DNA of 64,000 bases, taken from Farysia itapuensis (taxonomy: Eukaryota > Basidiomycota > Ustilaginomycetes > Ustilaginales > Ustilaginaceae). Below, piece by piece: positions 3,962 through 59,247 of the stretch; the stretch's first letter is position 1, and each line of letters opens with the position of its first letter. Position numbers and translations under genes: made by a program. The DNA lies in contig JALBYC010000006.1 of NCBI GenBank assembly GCA_023212645.1, positions 124,001 to 188,000 of the forward strand. Reading direction: 5' to 3'. Below the pieces are notes generated by a model. It worked only from the letters and a program-made list of their open reading frames with translations. It was not told where the DNA came from and made no database searches.

Positions 3962-6900
3962 CTACGCGGTAACGATCTCGCCTTCTTTGCTGTCGGCCCC
4001 TACTGGATCGTCAGCGGCGATCTCCGGTTCAGCTTGGCTCTCTTCTGCCACTTCGACGGTGCCCTCGCCTGTGGCGTGAGCTGGATTGTCGATAGCTTGC
4101 CTTCGGCTGGAAAGCCATTGAGACCATCGTTCAGATCGCTGCTTCTTAATGGTCGCGGCCTTCTGGTCGATTTCGGCGACCTCCTCTGCGGAGCGGATAC
4201 GCACAAAGACGTCCTCCGTGTCATGCACGAAGAAGAGTTTGAACGTCTTGAGACAGATGCGAATCTCGAGTGCACTTCGAGTCACGTAGCGCATGTTGGT
4301 GGTATCGTCTTCCACGCTTGCATTTGCGGGCAAAGAGCGCTTGAGGAAAGGTGCCTGGGCCTCGGCAGGAAGTCCTTCCGTGGGCGTCCACAAACTGAAG
4401 CTTGACATGTAGTGAAGCCATTTCTGTTCGGCTGTTCTTGCTTCGTCCAGAGTAAGATCATCCTTGGACAGCATCTGCACGAGCAGCGTGTAGGAACTCG
4501 GGACCCATTCCAGTCGGAACAGGTTCTCATCCTTGCCAATCAAACCTTCAGCAGTCATGCGATCAGCAATCTGCTGGCGGTAGCTCGTCAACGAGCTCGG
4601 AGAGCTGGCTCGATTCTGTTCCATGATGGCTTGAAGCTCTTGGCATTTGCTGTCGGTGGTCAAGAATTGGGCAACCTTGACCAGAGCTCCTATGACTTTG
4701 TCCAAAGTAAAGACAATGTAGCCCTCGATGCCATACATATACCGGACGCTTTCTTCAAATGTAGCTTGGTCAATGTCACCGTCGAAGAGCTTTTCGCACA
4801 TGTCGAGCAAAGTATCGTAGTAGCGCGAGGGATGCAAGATCAGGCCCGCCTCCTCGTTCGTAGGTGCAACCGGTCCCAAGTGTGATGCATTGGCTGTAGC
4901 TCCTACCACGGTGGCAGGCCCGTTGGCTACATCTTGCCCGAGTTCAATAGCAATCGGGTTGATTTTGCTTCGAATGGGCTGCTTGGCAGCCATCTGGGTA
5001 CCGAGCCCCTTCATGCGGTTCAAACGAGAATACAGCAATTGCAATAGCCTCGCGAACACAAAGAAGTGGCTGTTGCAGAAGAAGTTGACCGGTGTCTGAC
5101 CTTCGGCTTGACTTTCAGCCTTCTCGATTGCGTCGCCTATGTTGACTTGCTGTCCTTGCTGCGAATCCAGTGTGGAATGAAGATCAGAATTCATCCAGGT
5201 TCCGGCCGACGGTGGCGGATCAACGTTCGCACCGGCGGCCTTGGCCGTCGACGCTTCCGCAGCAGGCAGGTCTGCTTCGGAGACTGTTTCTGCCGTCGTC
5301 CTGTCTAGAGCCTCAGCAGCAGAAATTGCACTGCTTGCAGATGCATTCAGACTGGTAGCGACTGCGTCACCGCTATTTTTCGAGCCATCTTCCATGTCCA
5401 CATCCTCCGCAGGTGCGACAGAAGGCGCCACCGTGTTGGAAGTCTGGTTAGCAAGAGCTTCAGCGGCTGTATCGATGTCGGCGACAATCGACGGGCTAGA
5501 GGCTCGAGCATTTGCAGAGACAGCAAGACTCACTGCTTCAGCGGAATCGTCCACACCATCACCGTTCTGCTTGGACGTTTCGGCTTGGTTCCTCAAGATC
5601 TTCTTCCGGAGGTCCGCTTGCTGCTTTTTTCCTCTTCGACCACCAGAACCGGACAAGACCGAGCCGCTGTCTGTGTCGTCGTCAGCGGCAGTACCTTCGC
5701 TGCGACTGTCTTCTTCCAGCTGGCTCTTCCCATCCTCGTCATCGTCCAGTTCGACCTCGCCATTGAGGAGCTCATCGAAGTCGGTCGTATCGGACGCCAG
5801 CATCTTTGGCACGAACGATCGCAAAAAGGCCTCGATTCGTTCCCGGTCGTTGGAGCTGTAGCTTCCCGTCGAGCGATCAAGGAAGCTGAAAGCCAGCTTG
5901 AGAACGTCAGTCAAAACAGCCATGTCGTCCATTACATAGACCAGCTGATGGCGTGGCTTGGGTCGGGGAAGAGTCGGATCCAAGGTGAGTCTGCGCTGTT
6001 GTTGTTGAATCTTGCGAGCTTCAATTTCGGCGACGAAGGCCTTGGCAGTGATGGACTTTTTGTCAGACGCCTTGAAGTTAACGCCCTGATGGTCAAGGCT
6101 CTTGTAGTAATTGCGTGCATCTACTTCGCGCCAAACCTTGTTCCATTCGCGCTGTGCTCGCTTCCACTCTTCGTCCTTCTGCTTGAGACGGTGCAGAACG
6201 ATGGGCACAGCGACGCATGGGGTATCGTGGAGAGCATTTATGACCTCGAGACCCTGCTCGCGACCGTAGACCTTCTTAATAACCCGTTGATATATACTCT
6301 TGCTTTGGCCACCGAGACCTGGCTTCAGTCGGAAGGCGACTTTTTCTTCGTTGTCCATGGTGGAGATCCTTGCTGCAATAGGTTCGAGAAGCGCAATGGT
6401 GCGCAAATTTGCCTCAATGTGGTAATCATATTCGTGCCTTTCTTCTTCCGACCTGTATAGGGCATCCTCGTATGGATTCTTCTTATGAGGGTTGAAGCCT
6501 TCGCCTTCAGATGCCCAGGTTGGATGGCTGACCCAAGAATCATTGAGAACTTCCCAGCACATGGGGTCCCGACCAGAGCAAGCCAGTTCGACCTCTGACT
6601 TCGGAAGCTTGCGGTACGACGCTCCGTACACTTTGCAAGTACTGAGATCAACCTTTTCTCGAAGCGGAGCGGGCACATTCTCGACGATGGGATCTTCATT
6701 GTCCAACCAGCCGTGCTTGCCCATGTCGTATCCACACAATCCTTTAAAGGTAGCAAAGAGCTCGCGGTTTGCTCCAATGAAGAGCGCAGCACGATCCACA
6801 AGGGTCTTGACGTCGATGATATCTTGCGTGTAGAGATTGAGCAGCTTGAGGAAATCAAGGTAGGTGGTGCGATCATCAATGTGCTTCTTGACGCGATCAA

Positions 6901-14881: not shown

Positions 14882-16206
14882 ATGGGATCTGAAGAATACA
14901 ACCCTCCTGCCACTGATATCATCACGCTTACCCGGCATGTACTCAATGAAGGTTTTCGCCTTCGAAAGGAGAGTGCAGCCAGTGGAGATCTTACCATCTT
15001 GCTGAGCTCACTTCAGACCACATGGTAAGCGCCATTCTAGACTGCATCAGAAGGACAGGATTTGACAACTCGCCATTCGTGATTTCCTCCACAGCAAGTT
15101 CATCGAGAGCATGGTGCGCAAAGCCAGCTTGATCAATCTGTGAGTTTCTGCCATCACCGTCCGTCAAGGTTCGGCCCGATCTGACCCGTCATATTTGACA
15201 GAATCGGCGCAGCTGGTAACACCAACGTCCAGGGCGAGGACCAAAAGAAGCTCGATGTGCTCTCCAACGACATCATGGTCAACGCCCTACGGGCCTCAGG
15301 CAAAGCAGCCGTACTCGTTTCAGAGGAAGACGAAGAAGCCATCTTTGTTGGAGAGAAGAGGATCGGCGACGATTTCGATTCGAGCAAGGGCAAGTATTGC
15401 GTCGTATTTGACCCTCTGGATGGCTCCAGTAACATCGATGCTGGTGTCAACATTGGCACGATTTTCGGTATCTACCTCGTCAAAGACGGCTCCAAAGGTA
15501 CATTGGAAGATGTGCTTAGACCTGGCAAAGAGATGGTCGCGGCTGGTTACTGCATGTACGGTTCCTCTGCGAATCTGGTCCTAACCACTGGAAACGGGGT
15601 GAACGGCTATACACTGGACAATCAGATCGGCGAGTTCATCCTGACTCACCCCAACATCACCCTACCGAACCGAGGCAAGATCTACTCGATCAACGAGGGA
15701 AACAGCATGTACTACCACGAACCTGTTCTCAATTACCTGGATAGCATCAAGCACCCCAAAGGCGAAGGCGCCAAACCCTACTCGGCCAGATACATTGGGT
15801 CAATGGTCGCTGATGTTCACCGTACGCTGCTGTACGGTGGAATCTTTGGATACCCTGCGGATAAGAAAAGCAAGGACGGAAAGCTGCGAATTCTCTACGA
15901 GGCCTTCCCTATGGCGTTCTTGACGGAGCAGGTGAGTTGCGCTTTGACTTGCAACGAAAAGGGGAGCTATACTGACTTTTCTTCATTTCCTCACGCAGGC
16001 CGGCGGCGTGGCAACAACGGGTACCGAGCGAATTCTCGACATTCAGCCTACCGGCATCCATCAGCGATGCCCCATCTTCCTGGGCTCCAGAGACGATGTT
16101 CACGACCTGTAAGTATCGTGCGTCACTATGCGCAGCGAGAGAACGAAGAACTGACGAGCTTGCCTCTGGCCATTGTCGACACCAAAGGATGAGTTTCTAC
16201 AAGTGA
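14882..16206 (+). CDS. FBP1: Fructose-1,6-bisphosphatase, five exons
   Basis: Gluconeogenic enzyme that hydrolyses fructose-1,6-bisphosphate to fructose-6-phosphate in the cytosol. Exons are 14882-15024, 15095-15139, 15202-15931, 15999-16108 and 16188-16206, joined in phase to 348 residues, the length of yeast Fbp1. Recognisable parts are [11 protein letters not shown] and GDLTILL near the N-terminus, SEEDEEAIF, the metal and phosphate site [59 protein letters not shown] and [11 protein letters not shown]. The last exon gives the short tail MSFYK after a weak AAAG acceptor. If the upstream 74 bp intron is not spliced, an in-frame ATG at 14825 would add 19 residues. Such genes are normally glucose-repressed; a Mig1-like GCGGGG core about 145 bp upstream fits that, but is only suggestive. 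Confidence 0.95.
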
Positions 16207-28991: not shown

Positions 28992-30941
28992 ATGGTTCTG
29001 TCCGATCTCGGCAGACGCATCAACAATGCCTTTCAAGATTTGTCCAAAGTCCCCATAGTCGACGCTTCTTCTATCGACCAACTGCTCAAATCCGTCTGCA
29101 ATGCTCTGATTGAAGCCGACGTCAATGTCAAGCTCGTCGCCAATTTGCGTTCGCAAGTTAGAGCTGAAGTCACTGCGCTGCTCAATGATCCTGCCAATGC
29201 CAACTGGACCGATGCGCAACGGCGTCAACGTGTGCAAAAGGCCGTCTTTGACCACCTTGTTGCCCTGGTGGACCCCATGCACGGACAGACCAAAGCTGAA
29301 ACTGAACCCGGCGTCTCAGTGCAGCCTGGCAATGCCGGGCCTGGCGACATCTTCAAGCCCAAGAAGGGCAAACCCAACGTCATCATGTTTGTAGGTCTCC
29401 AGGGTTCCGGTAAGACGACATCGTGCACAAAGCTCGCACTCTACTACCAAAAGCGAGGCTTCAAAACCGGTCTTGTCTGTGCAGACACCTTCCGAGCCGG
29501 TGCCTTTGATCAGCTCAAGCAGAACGCCAGCAAAATCAACATTCCCTTCTACGGCAGCTATACAGAAACGGATCCCGTCGCAATCTCAGCTGCCGGTGTA
29601 GCCAGCTTCAAGCAGAACCGTTTCGAGGTCATTATCGTCGACACAAGTGGCAGACACAAGCAAGAGCAGGAGTTGTTCGACGAGATGCGCGAGATCGATG
29701 CTGCCGTCACCCCGGATCTTACCATTATGGTTCTCGATGCCAACATTGGACAAGCCGCCGAAGCGCAGTCTCGAGCTTTCAAGGAGGCAGCCGGATACGG
29801 TGCCATCATTGTCACCAAGCTCGATGGCCATGCAAAGGGAGGTGGCGCAATCTCGGCCGTCGCTGCTACATCGACACCAATCATGTTTATCGGAACAGGT
29901 GAGCATGCTACCGACCTCGAACCGTTCCGTGCCCAACCTTTTATCTCAAAATTGCTCGGAATGGGTGATATTTCCGGTCTCATGGACAAGATGGAAGAGA
30001 TGCAGATGAACGGCGGGCAAGAACGCAACCGCGAAATGCTCAAAAAAATTGGCGAGGGAGGAGTTTTCAGCATTCGAGACTGGAGAGAGCAGCTATCCAG
30101 CATCATGGGCATGGGGCCCCTTAGCAAGATTGCCGGCATGATTCCCGGCATGGGTGCGATGCTGGGCGGAGCTGGTGGAGACGACGAAGCAGCGGGAGGC
30201 AAGATGAAGCGCATGATGTACATTACCGATGCCATGACTGCTGAGGAGCTCGATAGCGATGGAAGACTGTTCACCGCCCCCATTCGATCCAAAGCAGCTG
30301 CGGCGGCGGCGTCCAAAGAACTCGTGGTTGCTGAAAGCTCCGTCACCGCCGGCAAGAGCAAGAAGAAGAAAAAACCGCAAGCCAAAGTCCGTATGACGGC
30401 ACGCGCCCGCCGCGTAGCGCGCGGCTCGGGAACTTCGGTCAAAGAAGTGGAAGAATTCCTGATGCAGTACCGCATGGTGGCTGGTATGGTCAAGAAGATG
30501 GGCGGAAAAGCTGGCTGGCTCAAGCAGATGCAGGGAATGGGCGGCGCTGGAGGCAAGGGTAAGATGCCTGGTCCCGGAATGCTTCCGCCGGGCATGACAC
30601 GCGAACAAGCCATGCAAATGCAAAACGCCCTACCCCCCGAGATCAAAGCACAGCTACGCCAACCGGGCGGTCGGGAGAAACTCTTGCAACAGATCCAGTC
30701 CGGCAACATGCCCGAGGGACTTGCCAATCTCGCCGGCGGGGGCGGTATGGGAGGCATGGGTGGTCTCGGCGCTTTGGCCAATATGATGGGCGGAGCAGGC
30801 GGCGGCGGCCCACCCGGCGCAGGAGGGATGCCAAACATGGCCCAAATGCAACAAATGATGCAAAGCATGGGGGGAATGGGCGGCATGATGAACATGATGA
30901 AGGGCATGATGGGCGGCGGTGGCGGTCCCCCAAATTCCTAA
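28992..30941 (+). CDS. SRP54: Signal recognition particle 54 kDa GTPase
   Basis: Binds signal sequences emerging from the ribosome and the SRP receptor, coupling both through GTP hydrolysis. Uninterrupted frame of 649 residues. The N domain (1-90) opens with [14 protein letters not shown]. The G domain has the P-loop [13 protein letters not shown] at about 135-147, then [37 protein letters not shown] and [13 protein letters not shown]. The M domain follows, with [19 protein letters not shown] at the RNA-binding helix-turn-helix. Typical SRP54 is 500-540 residues; the excess is a Met/Gly/Pro-rich C-terminus (repeats like GGMGGMGG and NMMGGAGG). That tail and a Lys-rich segment before the RNA-binding helices (KSKKKKKPQ) are expansions. 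The gene converges on NOT4 with a 152 bp spacer. Confidence 0.97.
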
Positions 30942-36394: not shown

Positions 36395-39040
36395 ATGTCT
36401 AACCGTGACTATGGTCGTCCATCGACCGATGATCTTGCCGAGGATCGCCCCTTGTTACAGGGTGAAGCTGACACTTCCGCCAATCAATCCATCTTTGCTC
36501 GTGTAAAGCGTCACTTGTCAGCGACTTTCGCTCCACTCGCAAAACCCGAAGATATGCGTCCTCTTGAACGATTCTTGGTCGTCCTTTCAGTGATTTTGTT
36601 GCTGCTTGCAGCGGTATTTATCGGTCTGTTTGCTGGCTCGCAACACAAACTTGCTCATCGTCCCGGCGGCCCAGCTCCTCGCCCTGGCCGAGGAAACCCA
36701 AATCAAGACCCCCCTCAAGGCGACATTTGCACCACCAAAGAATGCGTGATCGTTGCCAGCGAGCTTCTGCGCGGTATCGATGAGACTGTCGACCCTTGCG
36801 ACGACTTCTACTCCTTCTGCACCAATGGTTGGCTTGATGCTCACCCGATCCCAGGTGATGCCGGTCTCTTTGGCGCTGGTCAGTTTGTAGCCGCTGAGAA
36901 TGCTAAGATTATCCGACAGATCATCGCCAATGCCGGTCCGATCGAAGATCTCAACAAAGCTTTGTCGAGCATCGAGACAGTGGAAGAAAAGGCCGACAGA
37001 GAAAACCTTGCCAAGCTCAAGGGCTACTACGAATCGTGCATCGATCTCGACAGCCAGGACAAGCTGGGTGCCCAGCCCTTGCTCGATGTCGCAGAAGAGC
37101 TTCGTCAGCGACTCAATGTTGCTAAAGACCAGGACGATGACTTTGTAGAGATTGACCAGCCTCAACTTTCCTTCCAGCTGGACGATGCCGAGGACCCTGT
37201 TCCCCCGAATCTACCACCTGGTCGATCTCCCAAGCCACACCCTCCTCGTGAGAGCCCCAAGCCTTTCCCTCCTTCCGGCAAGCGACAGAAAGGCCTGACT
37301 GATGCGCTTGCTTGGGCCCACAGTCGCGACCTTCCAGCTTTCTTTGACATCAGAATCGATGGAGACGCTGTCAATGATCCTACGGCAGCAGTTCCCTGGC
37401 TCTTCCCGTCCGGTCTGGGCCTTCCTGATCAAGCTTACTACGACGATGAAGGCGAAGTAGCATTCTACAGAACGGTTGTCACAAGTGGTTTGAAGATTTA
37501 CGATCACGAAGTAAAGAAAGCAAGCTCAATGACCAGCAACAAGAAGAAACACAAGGACGACCGGAACAAGAAGCCAGCAGCTCTCGCCGAGCACGCTGAC
37601 GATGTCGTCGAATTCGAGCGTCGACTGGCCGAGATTACGCCAGACTCGGAAGAGATCAACGACCCCGTGGGATCGTACAACCCCGTGAACACGACATCGC
37701 TGCCCTACACTTTCTCCGCAATCGACTGGCCCTCTTACCTCTCTGCGCTCACAGTACGGACACCCGAGACTGTCATTCTTACCAGTCCCAAATTTGTCAA
37801 AGCTCTCGACTCGCTAGTTTCCCAGACGCGCACCGACGTGCTGGAAGCCTATATGGTCTGGACTGCGCTGCGCCAGCTCGGTACTGCTTTGGGCCCCAAC
37901 GTCAAGTTGCGGGGCCCGGCCGAGCGTCTAGACAGGTACAGTAAAGGTGTCGACCCTGATGCCAAAGACAACCGCGAAACCACCTGCCTTAACGACCTGA
38001 ACGCTGCGATGGGCTTCATGTCGGGGCGATACTTTGTCCAAGAGGCTTTCAAGGGCGACAGCAAGAAGCGAGTCGAAGAGATTATCTACTCGGTCATTGA
38101 AGCGTTCAAGGCCAGGTTGCCTCAGCTGGACTGGATCGACCAGAAGACGCGCAAACGCGCTCAGGAGAAGGCCGATGCGATTCGCGTCATGGTCGGCTAT
38201 CCCAACACTCCCAACACCACCGACGCCGTCTCGGTGCGCGCATTCTACGCCGATCTGCCCATCGATCCGTCCAACTATTTCACAAACAAGCTCGGAGCCT
38301 GGACACGCGATTCGAAACGCAACTGGGCCCAGGTCGGCCGCAAACTCGACCGGGAACTGTGGGACATGTTCCCTGCCGAGGTCAATGCCGAATACTCGCC
38401 GCAGGGCAACTACATTCTGTTCCCTGCTGGGATCATGCAGCCTCCGTACTTCCACGTGTCATGGCCGTCGTATCTGCAGCGCGGGGCGTTTGGCGCAGTC
38501 GCCGGTCACGAGCTGTCTCACGCCTTCGACCCGGACGGCAGACTGTACGACAAGAACGGCTACTTGCGAGATTGGTGGACCCAAGAGACCGCCCGCGAAT
38601 TCCAAGAGCGACAGACTTGTCTCACCAACCAGTACCACGAGTACACGGTGGCCGACGGCAAAGGCAATGAGCTGCACCTTCGCTCCAACTTTACCAAGGG
38701 TGAAGACGTCGCTGATGCAGGTGGATTGATTCAGAGCTACAAAGCGTGGAAGGACGAGCTTGCTGCTGGTGGAGAGGAGGTTGAAGCTGCCAATGCACTG
38801 CTGCCTGGTCTTGGCTATACGCGTGAGCAGCTGTTCTTCATCTCGTACGGTCTCAGCTGGTCGAGAAACATTCGAAACAGCGAGCTGGTGAAGCGTCTGC
38901 GAACCGACCCGCACAGCCCCACAAAGTACCGCGTCAACGGCGTCGTTGTCAATTCGCCCGAATTTGCACAGGCCTTTGGCTGTAAACCAGGTCAGGATAA
39001 GATGGCCAAGGCGCCCGAAGATCGCTGCAACATCTGGTAA
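36395..39040 (+). CDS. M13 family zinc metalloprotease (neprilysin/ECE-like)
   Basis: Type II membrane ectopeptidase of 881 residues. A cytosolic tail with a dileucine (RPLLQ) precedes a transmembrane helix at about 60-80. The M13 N-terminal domain starts at ETVDPCDDFYSFCTNGW. The zinc site is HELSH at residues 705-709, within VAGHELSHAFDPDGRLYD. The third ligand is E770 in GEDVADAGG; the family consensus is ENxAD, so the Asn is replaced by Asp. NAEY stands for the substrate-binding NAYY. The C-terminus ends CNIW, the usual CxxW. Two inserts interrupt the fold: a Pro-rich stretch near residues 265-305 and a Lys-rich one near 375-400. The open frame upstream of 36395 lacks an ATG. Substrates in fungi are unknown. 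Confidence 0.93.
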   Translation: MSNRDYGRPSTDDLAEDRPLLQGEADTSANQSIFARVKRHLSATFAPLAKPEDMRPLERFLVVLSVILLLLAAVFIGLFAGSQHKLAHRPGGPAPRPGRGNPNQDPPQGDICTTKECVIVASELLRGIDETVDPCDDFYSFCTNGWLDAHPIPGDAGLFGAGQFVAAENAKIIRQIIANAGPIEDLNKALSSIETVEEKADRENLAKLKGYYESCIDLDSQDKLGAQPLLDVAEELRQRLNVAKDQDDDFVEIDQPQLSFQLDDAEDPVPPNLPPGRSPKPHPPRESPKPFPPSGKRQKGLTDALAWAHSRDLPAFFDIRIDGDAVNDPTAAVPWLFPSGLGLPDQAYYDDEGEVAFYRTVVTSGLKIYDHEVKKASSMTSNKKKHKDDRNKKPAALAEHADDVVEFERRLAEITPDSEEINDPVGSYNPVNTTSLPYTFSAIDWPSYLSALTVRTPETVILTSPKFVKALDSLVSQTRTDVLEAYMVWTALRQLGTALGPNVKLRGPAERLDRYSKGVDPDAKDNRETTCLNDLNAAMGFMSGRYFVQEAFKGDSKKRVEEIIYSVIEAFKARLPQLDWIDQKTRKRAQEKADAIRVMVGYPNTPNTTDAVSVRAFYADLPIDPSNYFTNKLGAWTRDSKRNWAQVGRKLDRELWDMFPAEVNAEYSPQGNYILFPAGIMQPPYFHVSWPSYLQRGAFGAVAGHELSHAFDPDGRLYDKNGYLRDWWTQETAREFQERQTCLTNQYHEYTVADGKGNELHLRSNFTKGEDVADAGGLIQSYKAWKDELAAGGEEVEAANALLPGLGYTREQLFFISYGLSWSRNIRNSELVKRLRTDPHSPTKYRVNGVVVNSPEFAQAFGCKPGQDKMAKAPEDRCNIW

Positions 39041-39574: not shown

Positions 39575-42196
39575 ATGAGCGACTCAGAAAGCCGTCGGGC
39601 AAGGGAGAACGAGCATCGTCACAGCAATGGACGATCGCGGCATCACGATTCGAAGCACAGATCGCATGACGACCGCATACGAAGCAGCGACAGAAAGCAT
39701 GAGCATCGTTCCAGTTCTAGCAAGTCAGACCGCCGTCCTGACCGAGAACACAGCAAAGAGCGAAACAAACATGAAAGCAGCCGAAGACATCACAGTCACA
39801 GCGGTCATCACAGCTCAAGCAGCCACAGCCACAGAAAGCGGCATAGGGATGACAAAGATGACGATTCGCGCCACGACCACCGACACCACCACCGCTCTCA
39901 TACCAAAGCGCGGGAGGGTCAAGATGAACAGGAGAAGCAGGCGCCTGAAGATTTCGTGCCGACATCCGAGTCACTGTCTCTGACGTCATCTGCCATTGAG
40001 AAGCCCAGCGAGCCAACTGTGCTTAAGCGCGACGATTGGATGACACCAGCACCTTCCAGCTCCCGTCGTCCTGACAACGGCCCTCCAGACGCGGAAGCAG
40101 ACGACGTGTCGTACTTTTCGTCTCTCGGCAAGGCTAGGGTCAAAGCACCTCGACCTGATAAACCCGATCCCGAGAAGCTCAAGATCAGCTCTCGCGAGCT
40201 CAACACTCAGCTTGTCGAGGGCAAGACAGTCGACGAGTATCAAGCGCCTTCCTCGGAACTACAACGGCCCGCTTTTGGATCGCCAGGACATCAATGGCGC
40301 ATGATGAAGCTCAAAAGAGTGCTCGAGGCGGCGCAAGACGAAAAACGCAAGATCGAGGATGTCGCTCTGGAGCGATATGCCAGTCTGGAGGAATTCGAGT
40401 ATGCCAAACAAGAGCGTGATTTCCTGGATGGCAAGGGCGCAATCCGCGATGCTAGACCCCAGCTTCAAGGTGTCGCTCAACGAAGCTACATACTTGCCAG
40501 TGGTGGTCGCAGTGAGGCTGCATCTCCAACTTCCTCTCGGCCCGGGAGCAGACAGGGCTTCCGTCGACCAGGTGAGATGTCCAAACCTTCTACGCCGACG
40601 CCAGCTCAGCCAGCTCGTCCACCCCGCAATATCGGCTTTGACACGCCATCTTCTAAGGCAGCCACGCCGACTGCCATTCCCAGTGTCTTCACCCCTGTAC
40701 TGGAGCGTCCTCCACGCCCAGATTCTGCCCAAAATCCGCGTCAAGGCGTGGTAGTGGACGACGGGTCCGCTGACCCAGACAGACCCATCATGCCAGCAGA
40801 CGAGCTCAACAAGCTACAAGCCAAGATCATGAAAGCCGAGCTCATGGACGACCCATCTCTTCCGGAGCTCAAGGCACGCTACGAGCAAGAGTCTGCCCGT
40901 AGTAAAGCGCACAGATCCATGGCAGGAGACCAAGGCCGTGCTTTCGGCTCTTTGGTCGTCAGTGACAGAAAAGACCAGGGCTTGCTGGTTGGAGCTAATG
41001 GCGAACGCGAGCTTCAAGTGCTGCCAACACTGGATGCACGTGGACGCATGTATGACGTTGGCACATCTTCGCAAATAGACGAGACGCAGCAAGCCGCTCA
41101 CGGCGGGAAACGCGCGAGAAAAGAAGATCGTTTCGAGGCACGAGATCCACAGACGGGTCAAATCGTTCGCTACTCTGCCGACGACGACAAATTGTCACTC
41201 GGCGACCTCGTACGGGCGGAGAAATTCTCCGCTGGATCACGTACCCAGAAGGATCTAGATGCTGAGCTAGCCGCCAACATCATGACCGATGCTACGTTTA
41301 GCACCGACCTCGACGCACAAGACGACGAAGCGCACCGCTATGCGCGGAAAAAAATGAAGAGCGATGCCTTGAAACGCCAATTTGCCATCAACGATTTCGC
41401 AAAGACGCGGAAAGTGCTCGACACATGTCGCTTCTGCTGGCAGGACGAAGGCGCTCGTCCACCGAGAGCCACCGTCATCAGCACTGGCTACCGAGCCTAC
41501 TTGGCTGTTCCAGATGCTGAGCCGATCGTTGAGGGACATACACTGATCGTCCCCATGCAACACCACTTGTCCTCACTCGAAGCAGATCAGGACACGTGGG
41601 ACGAGATCAAGAACTTTCTCAAATGCCTCATCCAGCTTGCTGCCGCGCGCAACCAAAGTATGGTCTTTTTCGAGACTGTTCTCTCACTCAAGCAACAAGC
41701 ACACACGGTCATTGAAGCAGTGCCCATTCCTTCCGCCGCTTTCTCGACTTTGCCGGGGGTGTTCAAGGAATCGCTGCGTAGCGAGGGGGGCGAGTTCAGC
41801 AGCAACTCGAAAATCGTCGCCTTCACACCCGACAGGCCGTTCCGGAAGAGTCTGGTGCCCAACCTGCCTTACTTTGCCGTCAGCTGGGACCCGAATTTCG
41901 CCACAGGATACGGTCACGTCATCGAGAACATGGAGAAAGACCATCGCGACAAGGGAGAGGAGAACGCGTTTGACATTGACGAGCTCGGCTCGAGCTCTGG
42001 GTTTAGCAAGAATTTCGCCCGCCAAGTCATCGCTGGCGTTCTGATGGACTCGGCCAATAGCGACTCGGACACGCAGGACGACTTCAGAATCTACACGGGC
42101 AGAGTCAAGAACATCCCCGATGCGCAGAAACAGCAAGCCAAGGAAAAGTTTGTCAAGGATTGGGATCGCTTTGACTGGACTAAAACGTTACACTAG
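39575..42196 (+). CDS. CWF19: CWF19 spliceosome-associated protein
   Basis: 873 residues. The first 115 are an Arg/Ser/His-rich region (RSHDDR, HSHSGHHSSSSHSHRKRH), typical of splicing factors. The CwfJ C-terminal domain 1 starts near residue 610 (VLDTCRFCWQDEG) with a HIT-like motif, EGHTLIVPMQHH, near 655. Domain 2 follows and ends with IYTGRVKNIPDAQ and KEKFVKDWDRFDWTKTL. Homologues act late in splicing, in intron-lariat spliceosome turnover with the debranching enzyme. The middle part has a conserved QWRMMKLKRVLEAA segment near residue 235. Uninterrupted frame, first ATG used. Convergent with the aconitase-mL40 gene, 107 bp apart. Confidence 0.95.
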   Translation: MSDSESRRARENEHRHSNGRSRHHDSKHRSHDDRIRSSDRKHEHRSSSSKSDRRPDREHSKERNKHESSRRHHSHSGHHSSSSHSHRKRHRDDKDDDSRHDHRHHHRSHTKAREGQDEQEKQAPEDFVPTSESLSLTSSAIEKPSEPTVLKRDDWMTPAPSSSRRPDNGPPDAEADDVSYFSSLGKARVKAPRPDKPDPEKLKISSRELNTQLVEGKTVDEYQAPSSELQRPAFGSPGHQWRMMKLKRVLEAAQDEKRKIEDVALERYASLEEFEYAKQERDFLDGKGAIRDARPQLQGVAQRSYILASGGRSEAASPTSSRPGSRQGFRRPGEMSKPSTPTPAQPARPPRNIGFDTPSSKAATPTAIPSVFTPVLERPPRPDSAQNPRQGVVVDDGSADPDRPIMPADELNKLQAKIMKAELMDDPSLPELKARYEQESARSKAHRSMAGDQGRAFGSLVVSDRKDQGLLVGANGERELQVLPTLDARGRMYDVGTSSQIDETQQAAHGGKRARKEDRFEARDPQTGQIVRYSADDDKLSLGDLVRAEKFSAGSRTQKDLDAELAANIMTDATFSTDLDAQDDEAHRYARKKMKSDALKRQFAINDFAKTRKVLDTCRFCWQDEGARPPRATVISTGYRAYLAVPDAEPIVEGHTLIVPMQHHLSSLEADQDTWDEIKNFLKCLIQLAAARNQSMVFFETVLSLKQQAHTVIEAVPIPSAAFSTLPGVFKESLRSEGGEFSSNSKIVAFTPDRPFRKSLVPNLPYFAVSWDPNFATGYGHVIENMEKDHRDKGEENAFDIDELGSSSGFSKNFARQVIAGVLMDSANSDSDTQDDFRIYTGRVKNIPDAQKQQAKEKFVKDWDRFDWTKTLH

Positions 42197-42303
42197 ACGC
42201 ATCGCCAAGAACGATACACATACGGACACGCAGACGATGTATTGTACAGTGTCTATAACACCACGCAATGCAGATACATAGAATAGACGGAGAAGGCTGC
42301 TTT

Positions 42304-45300
42304 TTACTTTGATGTGCTGGGAGCGACGGTCAGGGCAGGCCAGCCATTCTTGCTAGGCGTATGTGTTGGAACTCTGAGTTCGCGTGGGAACAGACCTTCG
42401 AGACGGGCACCACCTGCCACAAGCTTGAACAGACGCCGGGCTTCGGCACCCGTGGGAGCGTTGGGCTTCAACGGAGCGCCGCGTCTCGGACGCGCAAGAC
42501 CGGCGTCGATCAGTCTAGCTTGCTCTTCAGGCGAGCGCGTGTTGGGTCGGACCTTGTAGATTGCCGCTTGATACAAAAAGTTGTGTTCGAGCTTGAGATC
42601 GGCTAGCGCCTCGAGCATTCGTGCGTGTTTCTTGTTGAGTCGCGTCTCGAGTTCTTCCCGCTGTGTGCGCTGGTGGAGCAGCCAGGCACGGGTGATGGTG
42701 GAGTGCACTTCCTCAGATGCTTCCCCATACGGCAACACATCAGATGCACGACTGGCGTTGAACCTCTCCTTGTCCTTCTCCGTCTGGGGCGGACCAGGGA
42801 ATACCATTCTGCGAATAGCTTCAGTGCGTGGATCCGCCGATGGCTGGACATACTTGGGATCGCTAGGGTTGCGCACGCTATCTGCAGAACTGGTCGCGTA
42901 CGTTCGCACACCTCCGAGCGAGGTCAACTTGGATGCTTTGCTCCCAGTCACTGCTGCTGAGATCTTTCCCAGCAGACCTTTGTTGGCAGCCTGCTCGCGA
43001 ATCGTGTTGAGCGCAGATCCAGCGCGAATCCAGTCGAGATGTGCGGGAGACAAAGTGTGCTTGGTTGGCAGCTCAAACGTCTCCTTGACCGTTTTCCCGT
43101 CGGACTCAAACTTGGTCACTCGCAGACGGACCTGCGTCCCGAGATACTTCTGACTTTGGGCTGGATCACTGGGGTTTCCTTGTAGCGTGGCATCAGTGTG
43201 ACTTGGTTGAGGTCGGATCAGGTCAGTGAGGTTCACGGTCTCGACCAAGTCTCCAGATGCGATTCTGAGGTAGTCGTCTTCGTTTTCAAACAAAAGGGTC
43301 AGCACACCCTGCTTTCGCAGATTGGTCTCAGCAATGCGAGCAATGCTGCGTGCAACGATCAGGTTGCATCCGTAGAAGCGGGGCTGGAGAGCAGCATGCT
43401 CTCGTGCGGAGCCTTCGCCGTAATTGTGATCGGCAACCATCATCCATGGCTGAGAGCGAGATTTATACAGCTTCGCAACTCCAGGAATGGTGTCCTTTTT
43501 GCCAGTAACGTAGTCCTGTGCCACGTTGACAGCGTCAAATTCGTCGTTCGTCGCGCCGATCAGCGTGTTCTCGGCAAGATTGGACAAGTGACCTTTGTAC
43601 TTGAGCCATGGGCCTGCAGCACTGATGTGGTCGGTAGTACACTTGCCCTTGATGCGCAACAGACATCGCATAGGGGCCAATTCATACTTGCCCTTGACGG
43701 CTGTAGCGGCAAAGGGGCTTGGGAACGGCTCCAGAGGCTCCAGACGTGTTGACGTTGGGCTGATCAGGATCTCAGCATCGGCTTCCGGCTCAGGTTGGGG
43801 CAGGGGCAGGTAGTCAAGATTGCCTTGAGCAAAACCCTTCTTGGGCAAGACATCGCTGTGAGGTGGTTCGAACTTGAAAGGCTTGCCGTCAGGGCCAGTC
43901 AAGCTATCAGTCATCGGGTTAAAGTCGAGTCGACCAGCAAAGGCCATGGCTGTGACAATCTCGGGAGATGCGAGCAAATTCCACGTCTTGGAGTTGCCAT
44001 CGTTTCGGCCACGGAAGTTGCGGTTGAAGGAAGTGAGAATGACATTCTCCTCACCTTGCAGCTCTTTTCGGTCCCATTGGCCGATGCAAGGTCCACAGGC
44101 GTTGGCGAGCACGCGTCCACCCACGTCGGTAAGCACTTGCTGGATGCCATCACGTTCAATAGTAGCGCGGACCTGTTCCGAGCCCGGAGTTACGTCGAAG
44201 CTCGACTTGACTTTCATGCCTCGATCGAGGGCTTGCTGCGCTAAAGAGGCACATCGAGCCATGTCGGCATAGGAAGAATTGGTGCAGCTTCCAATCAAGG
44301 CTGCACTCAGCTCAAGAGGATGCTGGCGAGATTCCGACTTAGCGTTGGCGACAAATTTGGACAGAGGAGTAGAGAGATCGGGAGTGAAAGGTCCATTGAG
44401 ACTCGGCTCGAGATCAGAGAGGTTGATCTCGATGTACTCGTCGTAGTGGGCATCCTTGTCTGCAGACAGCATACCTTGAGCAGCAGCTTCTGTGGCGGCG
44501 GAAGCAACTACTTCTCTACCGGTGGCTGCGAGATACGCTCCCATAGCGGACGTGTAGGGGAATACAGACGTGGTAGCGCCAACCTCGGCTCCCATGTTGG
44601 CCATAGTGGCCAATCCAGTCGCAGGAAGGGTGTCCACACCTGATCCAAAGTATTCGATGATCTTGCCTGTGCCTCCTCGAACGCTGAGCTGACCAACGAG
44701 ATGCAGGATGACATCCTTGGGTGTGCACCAAGGGCTGAGTTGACCTTTGAGGTGAACGCCAAGTACTTGAGGCGCCAGGAGCTCCCACGCCGTGTTGGTC
44801 ATGGCGTCAACAGCGTCAGCGCCGCCAACGCCGATAGCGAGACAGCCAAGACCGGAGGCATTAGGTGTATGCGAGTCGGTACCAAGCATGAGCATACCTG
44901 GTGCAGCGTAGTTCTCCAGTACAATCTGATGGATGATACCAGATCCAGGACCCCAGAACTCGATGCCATACTTTCTTGCAGCTGACTCGAGGAAAGCAAA
45001 GACTTCTTGGTTAGAGGCGATGGAACGCTTGAGATCGGCTTCGGCCCCTTCATAAGCCTGGATCAGATGATCGCAATGAATGCTTGACGGGATAGCTGTT
45101 CTGGGCAGTCCGCAAGTCATGAATTGGAGCAGAGCCATCTGAGCAGAAGCGTCCTGCATTGCCAATCGATCGATGTCGAGTTTGAGGTAGACTTTGCCTC
45201 GGACAGCCGCTGGGTCCGATCCAAGATCAGCCAGATCATTGGAATCGCGAAGATGCGAATAGAGGATCTTTTCCGACAGAGTCAGAGGTCTTCTGAGTAG

Positions 45301-45471
45301 TTCTGATGCAGCCTGAATCTTGGGAAGAAGCTTGCTGTACGGAGGCATTCGAGATTGATGAAATGTAGGGACTGCGTGGGTGGCATACGATCTCTGGGTT
45401 TTCAGCGCCCGCTCAGCGATGCAGAGATCGCTGCGGACCCTGCGCATCCTAGCCAGAGAGGCAACCAACAT
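42304..45471 (-). CDS. Mitochondrial aconitase fused to ribosomal protein mL40
   Basis: 1055 residues in one frame. Residues 1 to about 35 form an Arg-rich presequence ending QRSYATHA. The aconitase part spans roughly 50-840: GPGSGIIHQIVLENYAAPGM, MLGTDSHTPNASGLG, three [4Fe-4S] cysteines C396 (GSCTNSS), C459 and C462 (ACGPCIG), FNRNFRGRNDG, GKCTTDHISAAGPWLKYKGH and GEGSAREHAALQPRFYG. It should interconvert citrate and isocitrate, or act on homoaconitate as some second aconitases do. After about residue 865 comes a domain matching fungal mL40 (yeast Mrpl28): HSTITRAWLLHQRTQREELE, then LFPRELRVPTHTPSKNGW. The junction holds VRTYATSS, like a second presequence. S. pombe Aco2 is a comparable fusion, but to bL21m. 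The ATG at 45471 has a CAAC context; another at 45594 would add 41 residues. Confidence 0.9.
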   Translation of the reverse strand: MLVASLARMRRVRSDLCIAERALKTQRSYATHAVPTFHQSRMPPYSKLLPKIQAASELLRRPLTLSEKILYSHLRDSNDLADLGSDPAAVRGKVYLKLDIDRLAMQDASAQMALLQFMTCGLPRTAIPSSIHCDHLIQAYEGAEADLKRSIASNQEVFAFLESAARKYGIEFWGPGSGIIHQIVLENYAAPGMLMLGTDSHTPNASGLGCLAIGVGGADAVDAMTNTAWELLAPQVLGVHLKGQLSPWCTPKDVILHLVGQLSVRGGTGKIIEYFGSGVDTLPATGLATMANMGAEVGATTSVFPYTSAMGAYLAATGREVVASAATEAAAQGMLSADKDAHYDEYIEINLSDLEPSLNGPFTPDLSTPLSKFVANAKSESRQHPLELSAALIGSCTNSSYADMARCASLAQQALDRGMKVKSSFDVTPGSEQVRATIERDGIQQVLTDVGGRVLANACGPCIGQWDRKELQGEENVILTSFNRNFRGRNDGNSKTWNLLASPEIVTAMAFAGRLDFNPMTDSLTGPDGKPFKFEPPHSDVLPKKGFAQGNLDYLPLPQPEPEADAEILISPTSTRLEPLEPFPSPFAATAVKGKYELAPMRCLLRIKGKCTTDHISAAGPWLKYKGHLSNLAENTLIGATNDEFDAVNVAQDYVTGKKDTIPGVAKLYKSRSQPWMMVADHNYGEGSAREHAALQPRFYGCNLIVARSIARIAETNLRKQGVLTLLFENEDDYLRIASGDLVETVNLTDLIRPQPSHTDATLQGNPSDPAQSQKYLGTQVRLRVTKFESDGKTVKETFELPTKHTLSPAHLDWIRAGSALNTIREQAANKGLLGKISAAVTGSKASKLTSLGGVRTYATSSADSVRNPSDPKYVQPSADPRTEAIRRMVFPGPPQTEKDKERFNASRASDVLPYGEASEEVHSTITRAWLLHQRTQREELETRLNKKHARMLEALADLKLEHNFLYQAAIYKVRPNTRSPEEQARLIDAGLARPRRGAPLKPNAPTGAEARRLFKLVAGGARLEGLFPRELRVPTHTPSKNGWPALTVAPSTSK

Positions 45472-51352: not shown

Positions 51353-54300
51353 CTAACGACGGCGTGATTGACTAGTTCGAGCGGCCTCGAGCATGGCGTT
51401 TGAGCCTGGTGCAATGGGGAAGCTGGCGTGTCCGTTTGGGGACCCTCCTTCTCGGTTCGGCGATCGCTGCTGATACTGCTGATGCGTATACCCGTCTATC
51501 GCCGGAGTACTGGAAGACGTTGGCAGTCCGGCTTTTTCGTCGATTCGATCGAACACACTTGGAGATACCGTGTGCGCCGAAGTCGAGTGGCTCAGCGAAC
51601 CGGCAGATACTTTCCGCCTCCGCTCCACATCGGAGCCAGACCTCCACAGATCGCTGCTGCTGCGCGGTGTTGTACCACTCAGCGACGTACTACGCCCTTG
51701 CGGATGAGGCTCAGAAACCATGCGGTCGCTGCCATTGATGGCAATTGGAGCGGCGTCGTCTACTTCGACCCGGTGGGTGTACGTTCCGCTGGCTCCGTTG
51801 GGAGAAGATCGACCAGAACCACTGCGAACACCGAGCCATGCCCGCTCCTTTTCTGCTTCCGCGCGGTAGGGCTTGTTCGGGCTGGAACTACGTTGCAGAC
51901 CGCCAGAAGATGGAGCGGCGCCGCTTCGCCGTCGATGAATTTCTGAAGGGTCGCTCTCGGCTTCTGCCATGGCGCTAGGCTTGACATCGGCAAAAGAATT
52001 CGCACGCTCTTCCGCCAAGTTTACTGGGTCGGACCACAGCGGCTCGGAAGTCCCAAAGTGCGTACCTAAGCCGAGATAGTCAGTCGCGGCAGATCGCGCC
52101 TGATCCTGACGGTCAGGTCCCTCTCGAAATTCTGGTCCTGCTCGATACGGGGTGTTCGCCTGCATAGCTTGGGCATCGACGACCTGACCAACTACAAACC
52201 CAGAAGATGAAGGAGGCGCACCCATCCTGAAGTCATCGTCAATTTGACGATGTTGCTTTCCATATCCTGGCTGCTTCATCGGCGTCTCTGCGCGCCCACG
52301 ATTAGAGCCTGCTGGAGCTCGGTTGGGTTTCACGAGTCCTGTTCGTTTTGGCTTGACCGCTGTGTTCGGAGGGCTTGTACCACTTCCACCGTTCTGGCTT
52401 CGCTGGTCGACCGCGCTACTGTCGTCCCCTTCGTAGATAGGGTCTATGCCGTCATATGCACTTGACGTGTCAATGACTGGACCACTATTTGAAGCAGAAG
52501 GTTGATTCTGTACCGAGCTTTGATGTGCCAATGGCTTGTCCTCGACGCTTTGCTGCTGCTGATGCTGCTGTTGCTGTGGTGTCTGCTCCTGATTGTTGCG
52601 ATTAATGATGCTAAGGTACCAGAACATGAGATTAGAGATCAAAACTTGTTCGTACAGAGGTCGACGTGGGTTGGCTAGCTTGATGTGGCTTAGACGGTAC
52701 ACCGCTCTTTCGACATGGATTGGGTAGCGAGAGTAGAAGAAGCCGTTCTTGCCCTTGAGCGCCATCTCGTTTCGCTCCAGGAGACTACCGACAGTCAATT
52801 GTCCTTGCATAGGACGATGTCCTGTGCCTGTCGCACTCTCGTCTGCACCCTTCTTCTTGCCAAACAGCGCGCCAAGGAAGCTGGAGGACGTACTGTCCTC
52901 CCGCTCCTTTTCCTCTTTCTCGCGCTCCTTTCGCTCTCGCTTTTCGTGTTTCTCTTTCTTGCGCAAAATTCCTTTGTCAGCTTTGGCCTTTTCTTCGTCT
53001 TCATCCTTGCCAAGACCGAACCAGGAAAGACCGAAACCGCTCTTTTTGTCCTTCTCTTTGTGCTTGGGCGTTAGCGCGAGAGGCTGTTGCTGCACGACGG
53101 GGACATGAGTGGCAGCAGGTGCCACTGGTGCAGCAGATTTATCATCTTTTAAGCTTGCATGTGGATCGACAGAAGAGGGCACTGCACGTCGTTGCGTTTG
53201 AATTGGCGGCACCAATACAGCAGGAGGGGCAGTCGTGGGGTCGATTCCACCACGCTCTTCGACAGGCGAATGTTGTGGCGAAACGACTAAAGCACCTGCG
53301 CTTGACGTTCGATTGTGCAAATCGGGCTGAGAAGTCGATGGATCCTCGATGTCAAAGTAGCCATAGGGGGAACCTTTTGCAACAATCGTGTCTTGTGTCG
53401 GCGTGCGACGAGATGAGACACCTTCATCAACAAGCTGACCACCACTATCAGAAATCGTGTCGGCATACGAGGTCACACTTGTCCGTTGAGAGATATCTGA
53501 GTGGTAAGAATCGCGCGAGTGGTTGTCCGCCAGAGATTCCGCGGCCTCTGCCGAGGTAGGTCGTGAAGAGCCGTGTCCGAGCGAAGACTCGTCTTCTGCT
53601 CCGGAAGAGACCTCGGATTGACCGCTATGGCGTCTTTCCATCTCTTCCGCGCTGTTACGGCGGAGCTCCCAAGCTCTGCCACCCTCGGTTGCAGATTCCA
53701 GCTCGCCGCCTGTTGTGCCGCGGCGGCGCGATGCGAGACTCGCCCGAGGTGTCGAGTCGCCGGACGCCTTCCTGATCTTGGTTCGTGCGGCTCTTCGAAG
53801 TATCTGTCCCGGCTTCGGGACTATGATGGGGGCATCTGGATCTTGGGTCGGTTCTGCCGGCACGTCATCTATCGTGTCAAAGTCGTTCGGAGCACTAGTA
53901 CTCAGAGTCCTCCTAAGTACGCTGCGTAGCATCGCCGGATTTTGTGTCTGGCTTGCCTCTTCGGCTGCAGCTTCGAGCCTCTGAAGATCCCCAATGGTTA
54001 GATTCGGTATTCCAACGTTGGGGCTAGCTGACACACCGAGCTGGCTTCGGTTGCGTTGGAGCGGTCGGTCCTCTTGTAAATCATCATTGTCGTTCTCGGG
54101 ACGGTACTGTCGTCGAAGCGTACTGCCGCGACGGGATAGAGAAGTGGCTCGACTCACCAGGCCGCTGTGAAAGTCATGACCGTCCTGCTGCTGACGAACC
54201 GAATTGAGTCTCTGTGCGATGGGTGAGTCATGCGCAGCCATCGACGGAAGCATGTCGTCGGTCGGGACTTCTCCCTCGTCGCCAGCATGTTGACTGACTG

Positions 54301-54859
54301 CGCGTGCAGCGTGTTCTCGGAGGAAATTGCGAAAGTCGGAGGGAGAGATTTCCGGATGCACAGAGGCTGGCACCCAGAAAAGATGACTGGGATCCTTTGG
54401 CGAAAGGGAAGCGGCGTTGGGAGAGCGTCGACCAGAGCTAGACGATGAAGCCGAAGGAGATAGTCCTGGCAGGTCGGAAGGATCTGAAGACTGGCGTTGC
54501 GAATATGACGAGTGCGTGACACCGGCATCCGAGCCAGTTGCACGTGGTGAGCCTCGTGCCTTTCGTCTTGCCGTAAATTGAGAGCGACCGCCATTGAACG
54601 CCTGCTGGTCTGCGGCACCGGAGAAAGAGGAAGACGAGCGAGTTGCGACCTGGCCATCGTCTACGAGATTATAGCCGCGTCTTTCTCGTTCAGGGGACGT
54701 GAGAACGAGGAGCTCTTGACCACCTCCGTAGATTGCTGCCAAGTCGGGAAGATCAGGATCAAGCACGGGTCTATTCACGGAATGTCTTCTGTGAGACTTG
54801 AGTGCTTCTACCTCCCGGTTGAACTCATCCTCGGTGATACTCATCGAAGCAGACGACAT
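51353..54859 (-). CDS. Zds-family protein (Zds C-terminal domain)
   Basis: 1168 residues, mostly disordered and serine-rich. A short conserved N-terminus (EDEFNREVEALKSHRRHSV, then DPDLPDL) and the Zds_C motif at about 708-752 (RYPIHVERAVYRLSHIKLAN followed by PRRPLYEQVLISN) place it in the Zds1/Zds2 family. In yeast these bind PP2A-Cdc55, promote mitotic entry and exit and influence polarity. A Lys/Glu-rich segment (LRKKEKHEKRERKEREKEEK) and FLGALFGKK precede the motif, as in other fungi. Unusually, about 415 residues follow it, beginning with a polyglutamine stretch, whereas in yeast the motif is close to the end. The ATG at 54859 is the first in frame; the open frame continues upstream without one, and a 5' exon cannot be excluded. 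Confidence 0.85.
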   Translation of the reverse strand: MSSASMSITEDEFNREVEALKSHRRHSVNRPVLDPDLPDLAAIYGGGQELLVLTSPERERRGYNLVDDGQVATRSSSSFSGAADQQAFNGGRSQFTARRKARGSPRATGSDAGVTHSSYSQRQSSDPSDLPGLSPSASSSSSGRRSPNAASLSPKDPSHLFWVPASVHPEISPSDFRNFLREHAARAVSQHAGDEGEVPTDDMLPSMAAHDSPIAQRLNSVRQQQDGHDFHSGLVSRATSLSRRGSTLRRQYRPENDNDDLQEDRPLQRNRSQLGVSASPNVGIPNLTIGDLQRLEAAAEEASQTQNPAMLRSVLRRTLSTSAPNDFDTIDDVPAEPTQDPDAPIIVPKPGQILRRAARTKIRKASGDSTPRASLASRRRGTTGGELESATEGGRAWELRRNSAEEMERRHSGQSEVSSGAEDESSLGHGSSRPTSAEAAESLADNHSRDSYHSDISQRTSVTSYADTISDSGGQLVDEGVSSRRTPTQDTIVAKGSPYGYFDIEDPSTSQPDLHNRTSSAGALVVSPQHSPVEERGGIDPTTAPPAVLVPPIQTQRRAVPSSVDPHASLKDDKSAAPVAPAATHVPVVQQQPLALTPKHKEKDKKSGFGLSWFGLGKDEDEEKAKADKGILRKKEKHEKRERKEREKEEKEREDSTSSSFLGALFGKKKGADESATGTGHRPMQGQLTVGSLLERNEMALKGKNGFFYSRYPIHVERAVYRLSHIKLANPRRPLYEQVLISNLMFWYLSIINRNNQEQTPQQQQHQQQQSVEDKPLAHQSSVQNQPSASNSGPVIDTSSAYDGIDPIYEGDDSSAVDQRSQNGGSGTSPPNTAVKPKRTGLVKPNRAPAGSNRGRAETPMKQPGYGKQHRQIDDDFRMGAPPSSSGFVVGQVVDAQAMQANTPYRAGPEFREGPDRQDQARSAATDYLGLGTHFGTSEPLWSDPVNLAEERANSFADVKPSAMAEAESDPSEIHRRRSGAAPSSGGLQRSSSPNKPYRAEAEKERAWLGVRSGSGRSSPNGASGTYTHRVEVDDAAPIAINGSDRMVSEPHPQGRSTSLSGTTPRSSSDLWRSGSDVERRRKVSAGSLSHSTSAHTVSPSVFDRIDEKAGLPTSSSTPAIDGYTHQQYQQRSPNREGGSPNGHASFPIAPGSNAMLEAARTSQSRRR

Positions 54860-57603: not shown

Positions 57604-59247
57604 CTAGATGCGAATTCTGAATCGATCCAGGGCGGCTCGATCGGTGCAGGAAAAAACTGGCTTGACAAAAGCGGCTGGCTCCGCATCGATGCTGCCAGGT
57701 GTAGAAGCCGAAGGAGAGGGAGTGAACATGGATCTGACCGAGGTCAGTGATGGGCTGGAACCATCAGCGCTCGAGCCAATACTGCTTCGAAGGCTGAGCA
57801 ACGCACCGACCGCCGAATCGCGCTCTTGCAGTCCGGGAGTCCCGGTGTGGGTCGAGCGAAGTTTGGAGACACCCTCGTCGGCTGAGCCAGCGCGACTTGT
57901 AGCTCGAATCGGCGCCAGACGTTGATTGGACATGTCGCTGGTCATGCTGAAACTTCGCAAGCGTTTCAGCTGAGGACGAGTGACAATAGGCTCGCCGTTG
58001 ATCTGATACGCATAGTCGTGGTCCGCAGAAGGACGCTTGCCATTGTCATTATGCGAGGTAAGCATTTCTTGATGAGAGGGCCACTCGCCACTGGCGCCGC
58101 GGGTTGGACGATGTCCGTCATACTCCGAAAAGGTCGGGAGGGGGTGCAGGTCACGCAACTCTTCTACCGGCGCAAAGCCAGTGGACCACTGTCCATTCCT
58201 CGGACGCTGAGACTGGTTGTTGTCTTGCACAACAACAACATCTGCGCGATTTGGAGAGGAAGTGCTTGCAGACCTGTCTGCCCTATCTTCCAGCAAGCTA
58301 TGGGTGGCTGAAGAAAGGAGAGGGCTCGAGGTAGGCGATGGGGATCCTTCCAATCCTTCCGACTGCATGTCAAGGGGCAATTCGCCAGCGCGGCTGATAG
58401 GATCGGGATATTCGTGTTCATCGACGACGAGACCCCACTCGCCTCCGTCCTCGCCGACGAATCGCGAGTCTTCCCCTACGCGTCTGAGGCGGCCTTCACG
58501 GACGTCACTCTTTGTGTAGTAGGAAATGACGTGAAGCTTTCGACCTGACGTAGTAGTCATGCTGAAGGACTGTTTGATGAGGCCGTCAGCCTTGTACAAG
58601 TTCGATGTTGGACCTCCAGTGATGGACGACGAGGGCTTTTTGCGCGCTTCGAGTTCGCGATAAGTGAGGAAGCATCCGCTGACACGGCTGGCACTCCAGC
58701 ACTTGCCGTCAGTCCAGCGTCGCATGCCTGCCTCTTTCTCTTCCCATACAAAGATGCTGCCAGATACGATGGCAGCTGGCCTTTCAGAATCTTGCAATCG
58801 ACGTCTGATTCTTCGCGGTGGCTTGTAGCAAGATCGTCCGGCATCTGAGAGGTCGCACGCGGCCAGAAGCAGGATGGCATCCTTGGTCGTCTTGATGTGA
58901 CCCTGGTAGGTGGTCAGTGGTTGAGTCACAGTTCCTACATCATTGCCAGAGAATGTGCGACGGGAGGACGGCATTGTCGTGTGGTCTTGCGGAGTTGGAA
59001 GGATATAATCAGAGCGGTAGGCTGATGTACGCTGCAGATCAGCCTCGTCGCTGCTGACTGGTCGTCGATAGTGAAGAGGCGGAGGCGGAGGCGGGCCTCT
59101 CTCGTCGTAGAACGAGTGGTGCTGTCGCGCATACATGGGATGGTGCATTGTGTAAGCAGGGCCTTGGTATGCGGGTGCATACGGATATGCTGAGAACGGC
59201 GCCCTGCTGCCACTTGTGAGGTTACGAGCCATATCGGGTCTCTGCAT
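57604..59247 (-). CDS. WOPR transcriptional regulator, Pac2-like
   Basis: Fungus-specific DNA-binding regulator of the Gti1/Pac2 (WOPR) family; members (Wor1, Ryp1, Ros1, Pac2) control morphological switching, sporulation and virulence. 547 residues. WOPR part a is at about 112-200: TTYQGHIKTTKDAILLLAAC, then RRLQDSERPAAIVSGSIFVW and MRRWTDGKCWSASRVSGCFL followed by TYRELE. Part b is at about 217-250: YKADGLIKQSFSMTTTSG and LHVISYYTKSDV. WSASRVSG-FLTYRE fits Pac2 rather than Gti1, which has WSPSRILGNFLVYRE. A short insert (SDAGRSCYKP) interrupts part a. The N-terminus is Tyr/Pro/His-rich and the C-terminal half serine-rich. The first ATG (59247) was used; a second lies five codons on. Upstream lies 2.25 kb of non-coding DNA. 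Confidence 0.92.
   Translation of the reverse strand: MQRPDMARNLTSGSRAPFSAYPYAPAYQGPAYTMHHPMYARQHHSFYDERGPPPPPPLHYRRPVSSDEADLQRTSAYRSDYILPTPQDHTTMPSSRRTFSGNDVGTVTQPLTTYQGHIKTTKDAILLLAACDLSDAGRSCYKPPRRIRRRLQDSERPAAIVSGSIFVWEEKEAGMRRWTDGKCWSASRVSGCFLTYRELEARKKPSSSITGGPTSNLYKADGLIKQSFSMTTTSGRKLHVISYYTKSDVREGRLRRVGEDSRFVGEDGGEWGLVVDEHEYPDPISRAGELPLDMQSEGLEGSPSPTSSPLLSSATHSLLEDRADRSASTSSPNRADVVVVQDNNQSQRPRNGQWSTGFAPVEELRDLHPLPTFSEYDGHRPTRGASGEWPSHQEMLTSHNDNGKRPSADHDYAYQINGEPIVTRPQLKRLRSFSMTSDMSNQRLAPIRATSRAGSADEGVSKLRSTHTGTPGLQERDSAVGALLSLRSSIGSSADGSSPSLTSVRSMFTPSPSASTPGSIDAEPAAFVKPVFSCTDRAALDRFRIRI

Follow-up and report, generated by a model that had tools for sequence, protein, structure and literature searches.

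Does a fungal gene that encodes an aconitase directly followed by a mitochondrial ribosomal protein make one lasting two-domain protein, or a precursor from which two proteins are released? In Schizosaccharomyces pombe, Aco2 is such a fusion, with bL21m as the partner (Jung et al. 2015, as cited in PMC11431987); it is also named in the reference lists of PMC7022524 and PMC8148214. A first-pass annotation of a 64,000-nucleotide stretch of Farysia itapuensis DNA (here, the window) had described an aconitase joined to a different partner, mL40. Judging from the sequence, we think it probable that this gene specifies a tandem precursor that is cut by the mitochondrial processing peptidase (MPP) into aconitase and mL40, rather than an enzyme tethered to the ribosome. 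Coordinates of the features discussed are collected in Table 1.

Table 1. Features of the aconitase–mL40 gene in the window
Feature	Position	Strand	Details or basis
Aconitase–mL40 tandem ORF	42304..45471	-	1055 codons + TAA stop, one uninterrupted frame
N-terminal presequence cleavage-type motif R27-S-Y29, then A-T	45385..45393	-	predicted cut after Y29
Aconitase domain, residues 45-824	43000..45339	-	full-length TIGR01340 match
Lys626 at the pig Arg580 place (yeast Aco2p Lys610)	43594..43596	-	pig alignments; PMC3556520
Ala689 at the pig Ser643 place	43405..43407	-	alignments with pig aconitase
Joint, residues 823-858 (36 aa), following AGSALN, where aconitases usually end	42898..43005	-	composition
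Internal MPP-type site R856-T-Y858, then A-T-S	42889..42906	-	motif search
mL40 part beyond the predicted cut, residues 859-1055 (197 aa)	42307..42897	-	PF09812 profile, mL40 chains
Stretch matching PF09812 (MRP-L28) positions 70-123	42550..42711	-	profile scan
Arg938, aligned with Neurospora mL40 Arg295	42658..42660	-	structure-chain alignment; PMC7560712

The open frame and the identity of its two parts

The first-pass annotation had both the coordinates and the frame right. The ORF is uninterrupted: on the minus strand it starts with the ATG at 45471 and closes with the TAA at 42304-42306, and a further in-frame ATG at 45594 extends it to 1,096 open codons. That separate genes were joined by annotation, or by a lost stop or a base error in this assembly, is highly improbable: the frame is known from one assembly, but it stays open over 1,096 codons, GC3 at the joint (0.58-0.66) lies inside the range of the remaining frame (0.48-0.70) and thus resembles that of the flanking coding DNA, and the tail starts without a Met, behind an acid-free basic stretch that ends in an MPP-type motif. 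A cryptic stop-carrying intron at the joint was also considered and rejected, as a strict pattern (donor GT[AG]NG[TC], branch CTRAY, length 45-400, donor within codons 805-935) returned 0 candidates; in having no intron candidate at the joint under this pattern, the gene differs from S. pombe Aco2.

The aconitase part is complete, as had been proposed. Fusion residues 45-824 matched TIGR01340 (aconitase_mito) over profile positions 1-745 of 745 with 1072.5 bits (cut-off 825.35), and the three iron–sulphur cluster cysteines are present as C396, C459 and C462 (pig 358, 421 and 424). A search of the genome (13.7 Mb, 53 contigs) located four places of the aconitase family at E<=0.01: besides the fusion itself, these are canonical aconitase (TIGR01340, 1253 bits), LeuCD and homoaconitase Lys4. 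Because the canonical aconitase is encoded elsewhere, the aconitase of the fusion would be a lysine-pathway or other non-TCA paralogue. On contig C13, the large and small subunits of 3-isopropylmalate dehydratase share one 808-codon frame.

The fusion and the canonical paralogue are 56% identical overall (414/745 aligned). Of 22 listed active-site positions of pig aconitase, 20 are identical between the two; at the remaining two the fusion has Lys for R580 and Ala for S643, where R and S are retained in the canonical gene. With these two replacements, the fusion lacks the complete pig catalytic set expected of a TCA-cycle aconitase, and its K626 is the Lys at pig R580 that marks the fungal Aco2p subfamily (group 2). 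According to Fazius et al. (PMC3556520), yeast Aco2p works in lysine synthesis and has Lys at this place, where it is tied to a preference for homoaconitate over aconitate: exchange for Arg brought a 116-fold gain in aconitate activity and a drop of about 45% in homoaconitate activity. The same source names this Lys as the one exception in its residue comparison, and describes Aspergillus AcoB as carrying the same Lys, yet inactive. Saccharomyces cerevisiae Aco2p and Aspergillus AcoB thus resemble the fusion in having Lys where TCA-cycle aconitases have Arg, and in occurring alongside a canonical aconitase; unlike either, the fusion adds a C-terminal mL40 and the Ala at pig S643. By its signature, the aconitase part appears to be an Aco2p-type enzyme that acts on homocitrate or is inactive, and in our judgement the S643A change raises the chance of inactivity beyond that given by the Lys. 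The earlier wording left TCA-cycle and lysine metabolism both open; here the Lys speaks for the Aco2p/lysine subfamily, while the Ala makes an inactive enzyme likelier. A stretch late in the aconitase domain, PQPSHTDATLQGNPSDPAQSQKYLGTQ (fusion residues 754-780; window 43132-43212, minus strand), is for the most part missing from the canonical paralogue.

The tail had been read as mL40, and profile comparison agrees. Scanned alone, it matched Pfam PF09812 (MRP-L28, the mL40 family) with 30.7 bits (E 4.5e-7; cut-off 28.4); in the context of the whole protein (25.5) and in the genome search (26.1) the score was under the cut-off. The match spans 54 of 157 profile positions. At E<=1 the tail scan, in which HMMER filtering discards most matches with E over about 0.1, listed PF09812 and no other family. 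PF00829 (bL21) was missing from the list; bL21m was accordingly rejected as the identity of the tail, and no C-terminal bL21 domain of the S. pombe Aco2 type of fusion was found in the protein.

Comparison of the tail with solved structures pointed the same way. The best three matches were mL40 chains, individually weak, one from Neurospora (E 0.026) and two from yeast (E 0.2 and 0.48; organisms assigned in part from PMC7560712); the next two, at E 3.2 and 3.4, were unrelated proteins. A helix of the form TI-x-x-[AC]-W ... QRE in stand-alone mL40 (yeast chain, 147 aa; Neurospora chain, 370 aa) aligned with the tail, which differs from these proteins in following an aconitase within a single frame. 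The terminal motif, also read as mL40 in the first pass, fared less evenly: in a weak second stretch (4.9 bits), LFPRELRVPT...W pairs with FPMEMKVPT...W of yeast mL40 (shared FP-x-E-x-x-VPT), but the last 58 residues alone gave 0 matches in the PDB. A single-sequence model of the tail was poor (pLDDT 62.5, pTM 0.29), with a long helix at 54-110, and a fold search with that model gave 0 PDB matches. Searches for relatives of the tail gave 9 pattern matches among viral contigs and 202 among prokaryote genomes, none of which was confirmed. Taken on its sequence, the tail can with good confidence be placed in the mL40 family, on the evidence of one helix, the 54-position match.

This tail is the only mL40 that we found. 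In six frames and exon by exon, the mL40 profile at E<=10 and the tail sequence itself each led to one place in the 13.7-Mb genome, the fusion gene; neither search of this assembly showed a separate second mL40 gene, and the fused copy would thus have to serve. The claim that the partner differs from that of S. pombe Aco2 is upheld, and bL21m is a separate gene on contig C8 with a presequence-like start.

A processing-type site at the joint

The canonical paralogue ends in ...GSALNMMAASKA and a stop codon at the place where the joint of the fusion begins; the fusion runs past this end as ...AGSALNTIREQAANKGLLGKISAAVTGSKASKLTSLGGVRTY/ATSSAD (here and below, a slash marks the putative cut). The joint contains one acidic and six basic residues, its last 30 residues are acid-free, and it presents at 856-861 a site of the R-x-[FYL] type of MPP-processed tandem proteins.

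To gauge how common such sites are, we took the mechanical ORFs of 250 codons or more from the window and 200 kb of contig C50, which number 95 (64,164 aa). The pattern R-x-[YFL]-[AS]-[ST] matched 19 times, and in 4 of the 19 the 30-mer up to the cut was acid-free with at least four basic residues. The joint is among these four; of the others, two sit close to N-termini, at positions 38 and 39, and one at position 156 in an ORF of 502 aa. A narrower motif, R-x-[YL]-A-T, was picked after the joint had been seen, so that the motif counts are descriptive: it matched three times in the 95 ORFs, at the N-terminal and internal sites of the fusion and in a 1117-aa protein with, by eye, the look of a coiled coil. 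The 30-mer of this third match has two acidic residues, as has that of the N-terminal site of the fusion (R-S-Y at position 68 in the 1096-aa numbering). Basic 30-mers free of acidic residues are in themselves no rarity at internal positions of the mechanical ORFs (810 of 51,814), and the joint would look just the same if it were a basic linker bearing a chance motif.

Presumed presequences of the same genome end in a similar way. As judged by eye, R-x-[YL]/A-T closes four of five N-terminal presequences: that of the fusion, those of Lys4 and bL21m (both RSL/AT) and that of canonical aconitase (RGY/AT), which sits in an upstream exon that a putative intron would connect; the fifth, of Arg5,6, ends RSY/SS. 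A presequence-like amphipathic helix was sought before the internal site of the fusion and was not found there: the maximal 11-residue moment of this segment is 0.32, a value reached by 465/500 and 458/500 shuffles, and the presequences of canonical aconitase, Lys4 and bL21m have moments of 0.49-0.67.

Arg5,6 served as a control, run after the fusion-joint motif had been chosen. Yeast Arg5,6 is cut internally by MPP (Friedl et al. 2020, as reviewed in PMC8847149), and PMC8847149 also mentions in silico MPP sites in Atp25, Etp1 and Rsm22-Cox11; cleavage of Atp25 is told in PMC7560712 as well. In the genome studied here, a single frame of 718 codons holds argB together with the beginning of argC (contig C3:153500-158500, minus strand). 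Its internal joint, ...PAKPSGTRGFSTMARPGLTASRMTGGHRGY/ATAVERS (HRGY/AT), shows the R-x-[YL]-A-T motif after an acid-free basic stretch, which also contains a looser match, RGF/ST. The Arg5,6 joint is amphipathic (moment 0.69, reached by 32/500 shuffles), unlike that of the fusion. In the same region of contig C3, the rest of argC follows in another open frame, so that an intron is likely in this gene.

The fusion otherwise resembles Arg5,6 and other mitochondrial tandem proteins in having two mitochondrial proteins per precursor, a basic joint and an MPP-type motif, and aconitase–mL40 would add a pair to this group. No description of an aconitase–mL40 fusion was found among the open-licence papers searched. 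Because the joint has a processing-peptidase-type site like that of Arg5,6, separation after import is likelier than a lasting link. The first-pass proposal that the fusion links metabolism with mitochondrial translation is, with such a site at the joint, unsupported as stated.

Proposed processing of a tandem precursor, alternatives and precedent

In the tandem-precursor reading, a single mRNA would be translated into a mitochondrial precursor made up of two unrelated matrix proteins, one behind the other, and imported by its N-terminal presequence. MPP would remove this presequence after R-S-Y29 and make a second cut after R-T-Y858, releasing in equal amounts an Aco2p-type aconitase of about 829 aa with a linker tail and an mL40 of about 197 aa, the latter presumably entering the large mitoribosomal subunit. 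The basic joint may be the former presequence of mL40, in which the cut site would have been kept and the import helix would no longer be needed.

We regard it as unlikely that the fusion instead stays whole, with aconitase carried on the central protuberance of the mitoribosome and the Fe-S, lysine or NAD state thereby coupled to translation. The gene is in frame and is the sole source of mL40 found in the 13.7-Mb genome, and the internal segment is without amphipathicity, all of which would suit an uncut protein. According to PMC7560712, Neurospora mL40 helps to form a pocket in the central protuberance with density read as NAD, on which Arg295 stacks; its counterpart here would be Arg938 (Table 1), an equivalence that presumes agreeing chain and paper numbering. 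Such an arrangement is, however, at odds with a processing-type site between the domains, in a pattern shared with the Arg5,6 joint and several presumed presequences. More far-reaching, and quite unlikely, is the idea of a second capture of a second aconitase paralogue by a mitoribosomal large-subunit gene, with a different partner, in which some of the product would stay uncut and, on the central protuberance beside the NAD pocket of mL40, serve as a metabolite and Fe-S sensor for mitochondrial translation.

Two products could also come from two transcripts, through an internal promoter or an alternative 3' end. The one point in favour is the precedent of S. pombe Aco2, for which alternative poly(A) sites have reportedly been described. 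Here the joint has neither a stop nor, under the strict pattern, an intron candidate. A 3' end inside the joint would yield a transcript without a stop codon, which makes alternative poly(A) less likely in this gene, and a downstream-started mL40 mRNA would lack the basic segment, because the first Met of the tail comes after it. We therefore hold the two-transcript explanation to be very doubtful.

S. pombe Aco2 is a close likeness to the precursor proposed here, as it too joins a second aconitase to a protein of the mitochondrial large subunit; the partner differs, being mL40 in our gene and bL21m, a separate gene in this genome, in S. pombe. Depletion of Aco2 lowers mitochondrial translation products in S. 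pombe, as stated in PMC11431987. If the present case is true, it would be a second junction of an aconitase with a large-subunit protein of the mitoribosome, with another partner, suggesting that joint production of this enzyme and the mitoribosome is favoured in some way, through equal dosage, common expression or shelter from the cytosol. Sheltering of a ribosomal protein from the cytosol has been suggested for Atp25 (PMC7560712).

Several neighbouring genes were recorded in the same window. A convergent CwfJ-like gene (39575-42196) leaves 107 bases (42197-42303) between its stop and that of the fusion, and because the stops are this close, the 3' untranslated regions of the two genes may overlap. 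Pfam matches were obtained for a Sin3 co-repressor (3965-8368), SRP54 (28992-30938), an M13 peptidase (36395-39037), a Zds C-terminal domain (51356-54859) and a Gti1/Pac2 regulator (57607-59247). The Fructose-1,6-bisphosphatase ORF at 15275-16189 of the plus strand matches its N-terminal domain profile just from position 72 of 191, and this gene is therefore likely to have an upstream exon.
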